A DNA stretch of 41,146 nt. Source: a virus. Below the pieces are notes generated by a model. It did no database searches. It worked only from the letters and a program-made list of their open reading frames with translations, and was not told the origin of the DNA. Positions 20,847-31,142 of the stretch are shown here, one piece after another (positions within the stretch are counted from its first letter, which is position 1; every line of letters starts with the position of its first letter). The stretch lies in the IMG/VR virus record IMGVR_UViG_3300028177_000420, positions 1 through 41,146 of that record; one strand, given 5' to 3'. Both the position numbers and the translations under genes were made by a program.

Positions 20847-21582
20847 AAAACAATGACTCCCATGACACAGGAAATTTCTCCTTGGCTAAATCATATAGTT
20901 CCCAAGCAACATTTCTAGTTTCTTCTTGTGTATCACCTTTACATCTTAACTTACATACTCTAGAAAATGCATACAATGAACCAGTCCAATACCATTCTGT
21001 ATAGGTGTTCTGTGGTAGTACCATACGAGCTTGTTCTGGTGCAATACCAGCATCCAACATTTTCTTATAAGTTTCTACAGCCAAATCACATGATGCACTA
21101 ACCGCAGCACCAACTCTCACCTCACGATCTAACCATTCTATTGTCTCATCACCAGACCCTTGTTTCTTATCTACTGGTTTACTTCTCCATATCTCTGGGT
21201 CCCAATATTCTGGCTCATCTTCCACATACCGGCGTGACACTTCATTCCATACCAAACCTACCTGATGCTTGACTAACTGCCGTGCAACAAAAATGGGTGC
21301 CTTAATGTGAAATGATAATGTTGCATGACCAAAAGGAGTCCAATGACCATGCTTGGCAAGATACTGAATAAGCTTCTTATCTCTATCGGCGAGCTCATAG
21401 ATGCCTTGCCCAGGGATGTGTTTTGCCCACTGCGACTTCTTTGCAAAACTAACCCGAGCGGCATTAACTACGCTAAGGTCATCCCCCATAAAATCTATTA
21501 GACTAACATCCATATCTATATAAAAACGAGCCGAGGATGCCAACCCCCTGTCAATAGCGGACGAGCCCTGTATTTGATCCAT
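20833..21582 (-). CDS. thyX: Flavin-dependent thymidylate synthase ThyX
   Basis: ThyX makes dTMP from dUMP with FAD, methylene-tetrahydrofolate and NADPH. The signature RHRxxSxNExSxRY appears in changed form as KHQVGLVWNEVSRRY (residues about 105-119), with the NExSxRY half intact. Other ThyX elements are AARVSFAKK near residue 45, FGHATLSFHI, and ARMVLPQNTYTEWYW. The start given is an ATG inside the last codons of glnA; the conserved core only begins at about residue 24, so an ATG at 21513 is possible. It completes DNA precursor synthesis with the RNR. Confidence 0.9.
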   Translation of the reverse strand: MDQIQGSSAIDRGLASSARFYIDMDVSLIDFMGDDLSVVNAARVSFAKKSQWAKHIPGQGIYELADRDKKLIQYLAKHGHWTPFGHATLSFHIKAPIFVARQLVKHQVGLVWNEVSRRYVEDEPEYWDPEIWRSKPVDKKQGSGDETIEWLDREVRVGAAVSASCDLAVETYKKMLDAGIAPEQARMVLPQNTYTEWYWTGSLYAFSRVCKLRCKGDTQEETRNVAWELYDLAKEKFPVSWESLFYANI

Positions 21583-22576
21583 CAATAGTCTCTACAATAT
21601 GTTTCATCACTCTATAGGGATCAGCATTTGCAGAAGGACGGCGATCTTCTAGATAACCATTCCAGTTGTTGTCTACTGTAATAATAGGAATACGAATACT
21701 AGCACCCCGATCACTAACCCCATAACTAAATTTTTTAATAGATTGTGTCTCATGTTTTCCTGTCAACCTCTGATCATTATCTGCACCATACTCTTTGATG
21801 GCTTCTTTATGTTTTGATCCTAGAAGTTTGCAACACGCTTCAAAATATGATTGCGAACCTAAATCTCTCATCTGTGCATTAGAAAAGTTTGTATGCATAC
21901 CGGAACCATTCCAATCACCTTTCTGTGGTTTAGGACTAAAGTCAATAGAGACTCCATGCTTCTCTGCAATCTTCATTAGAATATAACGAGACATCCACAT
22001 ATCATCCCCGGCACTTACACCAGACCCTAATACCTGATACTCCCACTGACCTAATGCAACTTCAGCATTAGTACCAGTGATACCTATATTAGCGTTCATA
22101 CACGCCTCTGTATGACGGTCTACGATCTCTCGGCCGATAACGTTATCAGCACCAACGCCACAGTAGAAATCCCCCTGTGCCCGAGGCTTGCCCTTCTCAG
22201 GCCATCCTAGCGGCCGTCCATCTTTATACATAAAATACTCTTGCTCAAAACCAAACCACCACTCACTACTAATCAATTCTAAACAATGGGTTCGTGTATT
22301 ACTGGGATGTGGTTCGTGATCAGCACTCAATACCTCACACATCACATAAGTGCCACCAAGGCCATCTCCTGTGCGAGTTGCATCTGCACGGATACGATCA
22401 ATGGTATGATACTCACCTACAGGATTTAAAATACAATCTGACTTATCACCTGTAGCCTGTTGTGTTGATGATCCGTCAAATGACCATAAACCAACTACAT
22501 CATCAATTTTAACTTTACTTCTTAGTGATGGTGTTGGTTTATAACCATCTAACCAAACATACTCTAACTTTTCCAT
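21551..22576 (-). CDS. glnII: Glutamine synthetase, type II (eukaryote-like)
   Basis: A complete 341-residue GSII that makes glutamine from glutamate, ammonia and ATP. Motifs in order: YVWLDG, LWSFDGSSTQQATGDKSD, WWFGFEQEYFM with GWP after it, DFYCGVGA, GTNAEVALGQWEYQ, PKPQKGDWNGSGMHTNFS, RLTGKHET and GASIRIPI plus YLEDRRPSANADPY. All the metal and ATP-binding residues I know of appear present. No regulatory adenylylation site is expected in this family. It is next to thyX and downstream of gp59, in the gp59-gp32 cargo segment. It could supply glutamine for nucleotide synthesis and relieve nitrogen limitation. Confidence 0.92.
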   Translation of the reverse strand: MEKLEYVWLDGYKPTPSLRSKVKIDDVVGLWSFDGSSTQQATGDKSDCILNPVGEYHTIDRIRADATRTGDGLGGTYVMCEVLSADHEPHPSNTRTHCLELISSEWWFGFEQEYFMYKDGRPLGWPEKGKPRAQGDFYCGVGADNVIGREIVDRHTEACMNANIGITGTNAEVALGQWEYQVLGSGVSAGDDMWMSRYILMKIAEKHGVSIDFSPKPQKGDWNGSGMHTNFSNAQMRDLGSQSYFEACCKLLGSKHKEAIKEYGADNDQRLTGKHETQSIKKFSYGVSDRGASIRIPIITVDNNWNGYLEDRRPSANADPYRVMKHIVETIDGSNTGLVRY

Positions 22577-23681: not shown

Positions 23682-23915
23682 TCAAAACAACGAACTCGTT
23701 TTGGGTAGATAGTTTAATTCTTCTGCATTGTATTGGATCTTTTCTCTCATACTTTTATCAATCCATTTGATGATAGTATGAGCCTCAAGATCGTTTTGTT
23801 CACAGTAATGCATCACTGCTTCAAAATGTGTTAATCGTTTCTCGCGGACTAGGTCCTCTATGATTATAGAGAACCTTTTGGGTGTTATTTTTGTTGGTGT
23901 TTTTGTAGGTGTCAT
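23682..23915 (-). CDS. 33: Late-transcription co-activator, T4 gp33-like
   Basis: A 77-residue protein resembling gp33 in its core: TPKRFSIIIEDLVREKRLTHFEAVMHYCEQNDLE, then IDKSMREKIQYNAEELNYL, mirroring T4 'FIIEKMVEEFGMSYLEATTAF...IIEKIQSEA'. gp33 bridges RNA polymerase and the sliding clamp at late promoters; TATAAATA octamers occur in this window. An ATG at 23942 is in frame but lies in the tmRNA terminator, so 23915 is preferred. Confidence 0.78.
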   Translation of the reverse strand: MTPTKTPTKITPKRFSIIIEDLVREKRLTHFEAVMHYCEQNDLEAHTIIKWIDKSMREKIQYNAEELNYLPKTSSLF

Positions 23916-23937
23916 ACTGTTCTCATAATATAAAAGT

Positions 23938-23967
23938 GACATCGCCTATCCCGCCTTCGGCGATATC
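23938..23967 (-). terminator. Rho-independent terminator of the tmRNA
   Basis: Nine base pairs (GATATCGCC with GGCGATGTC, one U-G pair) enclose a 12-base loop, followed on the minus strand by ACTTTTATATT. It ends the tmRNA transcript and sits directly before gp33. Confidence 0.8.
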
Positions 23968-24355
23968 GGTGTGTGGCTCTCGGAGGGCAGGGACCACGTT
24001 CTTTCAATATACATAGTTAGAAATGAGCCCGTTTGGTTATAAGGTGGTGCTCATGCCCCATCAGATATCACGCTGCTAGCGCATAGTCCTGAAAGTAAAC
24101 GTCATCGTTGGCGTTTGTGTTTTGTGTCAGAACCCTCTTGCAAAATTTCAACTCGCCCCGTCGAAGCCATGTCACCCCCGTATTCGTTCGTAAGCAATTG
24201 CTTATTCCGTTCGGGTGGTAATGGACCCAACATACCTAGTCGGGCCCATTGATTCTCGGTATAATACCAATCATCAGATTTGGTGGAGGTGGTGGGAATC
24301 GAACCCACGTCCGAAACGCCTACTCTTTTACCGTCATCAGTTTCTTTCACGGTCT
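23968..24355 (-). ncRNA. ssrA: Circularly permuted (two-piece) tmRNA
   Basis: The acceptor part comes first (about 24355-24281) and ends with GTTTCGGACGTGG, a T arm GTGGG-TTCGATT-CCCAC and CACCTCC-A-CCA. After a 101-base intervening segment (24280-24180) the coding piece starts GGGGGTGACATGGCTTCGAC at 24179. GGGGGTG pairs with CACCTCC over all seven positions, with a G3-U70 pair, the alanine identity. The tag frame follows at 24112. Later stems include ATGAGC/GCTCAT. Processing would give two RNAs held together by base pairing, as in alphaproteobacteria and cyanobacteria. It rescues stalled ribosomes. Piece ends at 24355 and 23968 are estimates. An AATAAATA octamer lies at 24355-24362. Confidence 0.92.
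24068..24112 (-). other. tmRNA tag reading frame ANDDVYFQDYALAA
   Basis: The resume codon GCC (24112-24110) starts a 14-residue tag, ANDDVYFQDYALAA, ending in TGA at 24070-24068. The AND start and the YALAA end match the bacterial tag consensus; the last residues are the ClpX/ClpA degron. The stop is followed by ATATC. Confidence 0.92.
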
Positions 24356-24357
24356 AT

Positions 24358-24948
24358 TTATTCAGAAGAAGAACTGCCGAGACTAATATTTAAAGAAATA
24401 CCAGCAACAACCGTGCCTCGATTCCAATCCGAATCATAAGGAATAGTCAAGTTAGGTGTTAGGGTAAAACCATCGGACAACTTCCAACTATAACCAACCC
24501 CAGCTTCTGAACCTGAAAATTCTGTTTCATCAACATCAAAATCTACTGAGTAATAACTATCCAAACCGAGGATACCATAACCCACTTTCACTGTCGAATC
24601 AAAATCTGTATCATTGACATTCCAATCAAGTGATGGTGTAATTGTAGCACCCCACTGACCAAAAGATGTTTCTAAGCCAATAACATTATCATTATCAGCC
24701 TGGTGATCTAAACCAACAGTAGCATCAAGTGCACCAAGTAATGTCGTAGAATAAGAAATACCAATATCAACTGTATCACTAGTGGAAATTCCTAGGCCAT
24801 TATGACTTGCAGAAAATTCATTTCCTGATTGGTCAAATGATACCGATGTATCACCTGTACCCACAGTAAGATCGTGCGACCAATCCGTTGTAAAAGCCAT
24901 AGCACTTAATGGTGCCATGCATAGTAAAGCTACTAAAGTTTTTTTCAT
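24358..24948 (-). CDS. Predicted outer-membrane beta-barrel protein (196 aa)
   Basis: MKKTLVALLCMAPLSAMA is a signal peptide (cut after residue 18). The mature part is a chain of alternating beta-strands (GLGISTSDTVDIGISYSTTLLGALDATVGLD...), with Asp/Asn-rich turns, as in small porin-like barrels of 8-10 strands. It ends ISLNISLGSSSSE, so the last strand lacks the usual terminal aromatic residue. Good ribosome site (AAGGAGA). A phage-encoded outer membrane protein could block superinfection or alter the host surface. It lies directly upstream of the tmRNA; a late-like octamer GATAAATA is at 25009-25016. Confidence 0.75.
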   Translation of the reverse strand: MKKTLVALLCMAPLSAMAFTTDWSHDLTVGTGDTSVSFDQSGNEFSASHNGLGISTSDTVDIGISYSTTLLGALDATVGLDHQADNDNVIGLETSFGQWGATITPSLDWNVNDTDFDSTVKVGYGILGLDSYYSVDFDVDETEFSGSEAGVGYSWKLSDGFTLTPNLTIPYDSDWNRGTVVAGISLNISLGSSSSE

Positions 24949-31066: not shown

Positions 31067-31142
31067 TGGAGCCACCACCAGGAATCGAACCCGGGACATC
31101 AACCTTACAAAGGTCGTGCTCTACCTGCTGAGCTATAGTGGC
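31067..31142 (-). tRNA. tRNA-Thr(UGU) with encoded CCA
   Basis: GCCACTA pairs with TGGTGGC (one G-U) to form the acceptor stem. D stem GCTC/GAGC. The anticodon stem CGACC/GGTTG holds the loop TTTGTAA with anticodon TGT. T arm CCGGG-TTCGATT-CCTGG, discriminator T and CCA encoded. It reads ACA codons, which are common in AT-rich coding. It has its own promoter. Confidence 0.95.

Follow-up and report, generated by a model that had tools for sequence, protein, structure and literature searches.

Two-piece tmRNAs are already known from bacteriophages. In the Methylophilales phage Melnitz, Buchholz et al. described in 2022 a two-piece ssrA that immediately precedes the late coactivator gene, and they reported 53 putative two-piece tmRNAs among phage genomes, of which 50 came from aquatic samples (PMC9004378). 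Melnitz (MZ577097) resembles the locus analyzed here in that it is a T4-like marine phage with a permuted tmRNA between an exonuclease gene and gp33/gp59, but its tag is different and its spacer holds an unrelated ATG-started ORF without the YYT motif described below. Melnitz also harbors a glutamine riboswitch after the tmRNA (L026:3446-3494), while the window (our term for the whole stretch of 41,146 nt from the IMG/VR record IMGVR_UViG_3300028177_000420) has none: the search with RF01739 gave no match in it and found the riboswitch of Melnitz, which served as positive control. In the Pelagibacter phage HTVC008M (KC465899), a permuted tmRNA exists at the same locus (RF04321, 90.6 bits, L027:5104-5415), where it is unannotated in the record, but its spacer is a short hairpin without the motif. 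A precedent for functional cargo comes from a single, nominally archaeal genome, in which the intervening sequence of a permuted tmRNA harbors an intact tRNA-Ala, as presented in the 2025 tmRNA database paper; there the cargo is a tRNA and not, as in the window, a conserved frame overlapping the tmRNA (PMC11915505).

An earlier note on this DNA had proposed a permuted tmRNA in a T4-like phage and knew of no other such case. Since those of Melnitz and other phages are published, the tmRNA of the window is itself of a known kind. What appears to be new, judged from sequence comparison, is the protein gene nested with its frame kept in the intervening segment; a literature search on tmRNA intervening segments or nested microproteins retrieved nothing, and a further one only the Melnitz paper. 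Intervening segments of permuted tmRNAs are regarded as waste that is discarded during maturation, and the 101-base segment had been taken as inert in the note. This does not agree with the coding evidence in the spacer: within the phage clade, one protein frame is maintained from the first tRNA-like piece through the intervening segment into the second.

The permuted tmRNA gene and its fold

ARAGORN called a permuted tmRNA at 23977-24373 (-), and the Rfam model tmRNA_permuted (RF04321) matched 24335-24068 (-) with 101.7 bits (E 7e-19), well above its gathering threshold of 47 bits. The gene is complete and we place it at about 24350-24019 (-), so the limits of 23968-24355 given previously enclose it but are slightly wide. 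Its parts are listed in Table 1. The tRNA-like domain is split in the permuted two-piece order, with the acceptor piece and its CCA ahead of the 5' piece, as had been predicted. The 7-bp acceptor stem (GGGGGUG/CACCUCC) with the G3-U70 pair, which confers alanine identity, closes across the spacer. The resume frame encodes the alanine-rich tag and then a stop, in agreement with the tag read earlier from the letters, and most relatives follow the tag pattern ANDD[FVYS]Y..[DE][YF][AR]LAA. A sub-threshold match to DUF805b RNA in the 5' part of the acceptor piece, at 24317-24353 (-), is weak (22.1 bits against a threshold of 35.6) and was taken as fortuitous.

Table 1. Features of the tmRNA locus, in positions of the window
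Feature	Position	Strand	Basis or remark
Upstream gene, 196 aa, outer-membrane-protein-like by composition	24358..24948	-	no family match
T4-type late promoter element AATAAATA	24355..24362	-	sequence
ORF, 82 aa, GTG start, VKETDDGKRVGVSDVGSIPTTSTKSDDWYYTENQWARLGMLGPLPPERNKQLLTNEYGGDMASTGRVEILQEGSDTKHKRQR	24102..24350	-	from the acceptor piece 5' end, through the spacer, into the coding piece
tmRNA acceptor piece with T arm, 3' acceptor strand and CCA	24281..24350	-	70 nt; ARAGORN, Rfam, pairing with the coding piece
Intervening segment, read as protein-coding in frame with the acceptor piece	24180..24280	-	exactly 101 nt, CCA (end 24281) to GGGGGTG (start 24179)
Conserved motif WYYTENQWARLGMLGPLPPER encoded by the spacer	24207..24269	-	sequence comparison
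tmRNA coding piece with 5' acceptor strand, D-loop region, tag and 3' structured region	24019..24179	-	3' end approximate
Tag reading frame ANDDVYFQDYALAA and stop	24068..24112	-	ARAGORN, sequence
gp33-like late transcription coactivator, syntenic	23682..23942	-	PHROG 254, 3e-18

The two-piece structure was compared over 28 distinct relatives. In these, 96.3% of the cells were paired, double-sided changes were found at 19 of 30 pairs, and the G3-U70 pair was kept in 28/28. The covariation score amounted to 0.434 versus 0.156 in shuffles (0/500), and with slid partner versions the pairing collapsed to 38-50%. Compensatory pairing between the pieces is present in helices 2, 3, 4 and 6. Since helices 2-4 are formed between the two pieces and lie outside the acceptor stem, the two pieces are held together by more than this stem, a point on which the earlier proposal had been made to depend. 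A nucleotide search of phage records with the tmRNA yielded only short T-arm/acceptor matches in tRNAs, in prophage attachment sites and in other tmRNAs. The tmRNA tree (about 130 columns, with several unparsed sequences left out) was too poorly resolved for use.

The comparison with alphaproteobacterial ssrA suggested in the note gave a mixed picture. The threshold of alpha_tmRNA (RF01849) was passed by many relatives (L022, L023, L036, L047, L054, L081, L084, L086 and L238), but no match to this model was reported in the window, where beta_tmRNA (RF01850) scored best of the two with 59.7, below its threshold of 84. An alphaproteobacterial affinity of the window tmRNA is plausible. All relatives carrying the motif are metagenomic contigs, and a genome scan for the host with the tag pattern revealed as the sole plausible look-alike the marine alphaproteobacterium UBA2964 (L106, ANDNVASQDYALAA). 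The 41-kb fragment harbors no SmpB gene, and therefore SmpB is presumed to be provided by the host.

The reading frame in the intervening segment

The first relatives were collected by a tRNA-arm pattern and by gp33, and not by the peptide. The lengths of their spacers (101, 116, 140 and 170 nt) are separated by multiples of three, and a single open frame is common to all, while the other frames contain stops. In the ORF frame, NG86 analysis of these spacers resulted in dS values of 0.19-1.13 and dN values of 0.02-0.11; dN/dS in spacers was mostly about 0.05-0.5, with the pairs of deepest divergence resting on the 21-codon motif. This motif has the consensus YYTxxEWSRxxGxGxxPxER in the clade. 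A search with the spacer peptide revealed 63 loci, nearly all of them within permuted tmRNAs.

By spacer-length scans and a search with a broader motif, the set was widened to 57 distinct genes. The later members were gathered by the motif, and thus its conservation reflects in part how they were chosen; frame, start codon, promoter position and synonymous change played no role in this choice. The distance from the CCA to the motif has 17 values in the 57 genes, and 16 of these are 2 modulo 3, i.e. they correspond to the same frame. Between the GTG and the last motif codon, 54/57 genes are open in frame 0 and 0/57 in the frames +1 and +2, and the numbers of stops in the frames 0, +1 and +2 are 8, 214 and 413. 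A start codon at the acceptor piece 5' end is present in 56/57 genes (GTG at -70 in 50, ATG at -64 in six). The sole gene that breaks the frame is L336, in which an ATG is found 3 nt after the spacer begins. Not all distinct spacer lengths need to be independent events, but each new length requires at least one. In the clade, the frame has persisted through at least 15 frame-preserving length changes.

An excess of third-position entropy was found for the motif (p=5e-5) and was not significant for the acceptor piece (p=0.20), a stretch constrained by RNA pairing. In L039 and L060 the spacers encode an extra helical C-terminal part, in which synonymous sites are saturated at a dN of 0.24. The combination of a kept frame and synonymous change fits selection on a protein and does not fit a frame open by chance. 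Thus the spacer ORF is under purifying selection on its amino acids, and the interpretation of the intervening segment of this uncultivated phage clade as protein-coding is well supported.

Alphaproteobacteria served as a control. Permuted tmRNA genes were detected in 133/142 genomes, and spacers could be parsed for 28 of the 30 best-scoring genes. These spacers are 3-47 nt long, and in 26/28 the acceptor piece contains a stop in the matching frame.

Copies of the motif are also found in stand-alone genes. Those in L065, L073, L074, L076, L078 and L089 start with ATG, and RF04321 has no match anywhere in their records; for further stand-alone copies in L325, L326, L330, L331, L332 and L335, ARAGORN detected no tmRNA within the fetched stretch. 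The copies in L333 and L334 are tmRNA-borne and do not belong to this group. The stand-alone proteins comprise 54-124 aa with the motif near the N- or the C-terminus. Searches with the spacer peptide in 50,697 phage records, Pfam, PHROGs and PDB sequences gave no credible match. An AlphaFold model of the spacer-ORF protein is of low confidence on the whole (mean pLDDT 62.9): the N-terminal part encoded by the tRNA-like sequence is disordered (pLDDT <50), while the helices after the motif are confident, and the model has no structural match at E<=0.001. The model suggests a protein with a disordered, tRNA-encoded tail followed by helices.

Putative late promoter and start codon, and neighborhood

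A putative T4-type late promoter element directly precedes the gene. Nearly all relatives share (A/T/C)ATAAATA or CTAAATA at this place, its end 4-6 nt ahead of the start codon. In T4 the late consensus TATAAATA occupies positions -13 to -6 and has A or T at the first of them, and CTAAATA is the form of the late element in phage Aeh1 (PMC1524935). Based on this spacing, the +1 of the transcript is predicted to coincide with the GTG within 1 nt. With this start, the acceptor piece would need no 5' trimming and the ORF would be leaderless. Late expression of the locus is supported by the motif at its fixed upstream place, and not only by the nearness of gp33, from which late or constant expression had been suggested in the note.

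Leaderless GUG starts are inefficient in E. coli. A Shine-Dalgarno site is absent before the window ORF and exists in only some relatives (L313, and before the internal ATG of L022). In addition, nearly all relatives pair the GUG with CAC in the coding piece as part of helix 1; this provides a second explanation for the conservation of the GUG, so that the constancy of the GTG alone is no proof of a start codon. On the other hand, for genes such as that of the window, in which only four codons lie between the CCA and the motif, the kept frame requires a start in or before the acceptor piece.

The gene beside the tmRNA is gp33, as stated earlier, and the surroundings contain further T4-type genes: gp59, an exonuclease gene, phoH, the gene of a flavin-dependent thymidylate synthase, gp32 and genes of baseplate proteins. 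The order phoH - exonuclease - (variable gene) - tmRNA - gp33 - gp59 is common to many contigs, Melnitz and HTVC008M. In the window, the stop codon of the variable upstream gene falls within the late promoter; among relatives the gene at this position changes, and late promoter and tmRNA stay. The 196-aa protein encoded there has a signal-peptide-like start and a barrel-like composition.

Some other elements of this region were noticed. Right after the tmRNA, at about 24014-23945 (-), a short ORF is located (MYIERTWSLPSESHTPISPKAG), which is common to close relatives (L015:1869, L019:1704, L020:2860). Sequence similar to GTGGTCYCTGCC is more widespread in the clade, and thus this ORF may instead represent an RNA structure. 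The manA RNA motif (RF01745) is found 3' of gp59 in relatives (L002:5575-5791, L036:2614-2818, L081:2800-3004) and was not reported in the window. A phage-borne glutamine synthetase of the GlnII type is encoded at 21551-22576 (-) (NCBIfam NF041605, 2.6e-114, below its cut-off); it shares 50% identity with one in a 735-kb uncultured phage and is syntenic in many contigs of the clade. A tRNA-Thr (TGT) is located at 31067-31142 (-), and is present in several relatives, too.

A probable dual-purpose gene and other explanations

From the tmRNA structure, the late-promoter motif, the kept frame, the selection on the peptide and the stand-alone relatives, we infer that this locus of an uncultivated marine T4-like phage is very probably a dual-purpose gene, giving rise to a two-piece tmRNA and to a small protein. 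Transcription from the late promoter would yield an RNA beginning at the GUG or within a base of it. This RNA could be folded and cut, presumably by tRNA-processing enzymes of the host, into a 70-nt acceptor RNA and a coding RNA of roughly 160 nt. Together with SmpB of the host, the two-piece tmRNA may rescue stalled ribosomes late in infection, and the products would carry the tag. Alternatively, if a ribosome initiates at the GUG before the cutting, the same RNA would serve as mRNA. The resulting small protein would receive its N-terminus from the tRNA-like half, its conserved core from the intervening segment and its C-terminus from the start of the coding piece. For each molecule, the fates as tmRNA and as mRNA would be mutually exclusive. 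SgrS/SgrT is a known dual-function RNA, combining a functional RNA and an mRNA in one, but it is a base-pairing regulator, whereas the tmRNA precursor proposed here must be cut for one function and stay whole for the other.

It is tempting to go further and to propose that the late transcript is truly bifunctional, being either cut to a working two-piece tmRNA or translated leaderless from the GUG through the tRNA-like domain, that cutting and translation compete and thereby set the ratio of rescue RNA to protein, and that spacers of phage permuted tmRNAs are more generally sites of nested genes. To this extended proposal we give an even chance.

The simplest alternative is an ordinary phage permuted tmRNA with an inert spacer, in which the frame is a chance by-product of tRNA-like sequence. 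Indeed, the 3' halves of tRNAs are often open in the ORF frame; alphaproteobacterial genes read ...DPGAVPGAST after their early stop, and the GUG is needed for RNA pairing in any case. However, chance would hardly place sixteen spacer lengths in one frame with the other frames never open, nor would it account for the mostly synonymous change in the spacers, up to synonymous saturation in L039 and L060, and for the existence of homologous stand-alone genes. We therefore consider an inert spacer highly improbable. The same stand-alone homologs show that the motif belongs to independent genes, and this would suit a somewhat different history, in which the spacer is the decaying remnant of a protein gene that was located beside the tmRNA at the time of permutation, was coding until recently and is no longer made into protein. 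A permutation by tandem duplication would be expected to trap a neighbor in the spacer, and a remnant would also explain why there is no Shine-Dalgarno site and why no function is assigned. Decay is, however, difficult to reconcile with 54/57 divergent copies that are open, in frame and equipped with a start, many of them with saturated synonymous sites. A remnant would not persist so long, nor would it gain a replacement ATG as in L336, and hence this explanation seems quite unlikely to us.

Alternatively, translation of the ORF could itself act as a signal. The state of the ribosome would then be linked to tmRNA maturation by a peptide of the leader or arrest type, or by a nonstop end that cleavage creates, and the peptide would have no independent role. 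The overlap of the ORF with both tmRNA pieces sets translation against folding, and a cut at the 5' end of the coding piece would leave a nonstop mRNA that could be rescued by the tmRNA itself. The spacing of the invariant W, G and P resembles arrest peptides, albeit loosely. The stand-alone copies of 54-124 aa, in which the motif occupies either end, and the extra conserved helical C-terminal part in L039 and L060 point instead to a protein product, and we regard a purely regulatory ORF as unlikely. If, as the dual-purpose gene implies, the protein is made, the sequences for tmRNA and protein overlap and every transcript can serve only one of the two, which would be unusual for ribosome rescue, for leaderless translation and for overlapping genes. 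The specific peptide and the RNA ends are offered here as targets for marine metatranscriptomes and metaproteomes.

Finally, the long spacers of other phage permuted tmRNAs also deserve mention. Small ATG- or GTG-started ORFs unrelated to the one described here are present in L026 (Melnitz), L006/L011, L144, L169, L242, L251 and L259, and several of them are hydrophobic, for example those of L006 (MTHKEEKRQLILFCVPAVAIILALVFL, ending in a stop) and L144 (MEKVQAYLLFTMLFFLGMYLLIY, likewise). Another class of phage spacers is closed by a stem of 9-12 bp and looks structured inside (L141, L184, L202, L216, L239 and many of L140-L224). Some of these stem-closed spacers hold a T-arm-like sequence (GGTTCGAGTCC) and are perhaps derived from tRNA.
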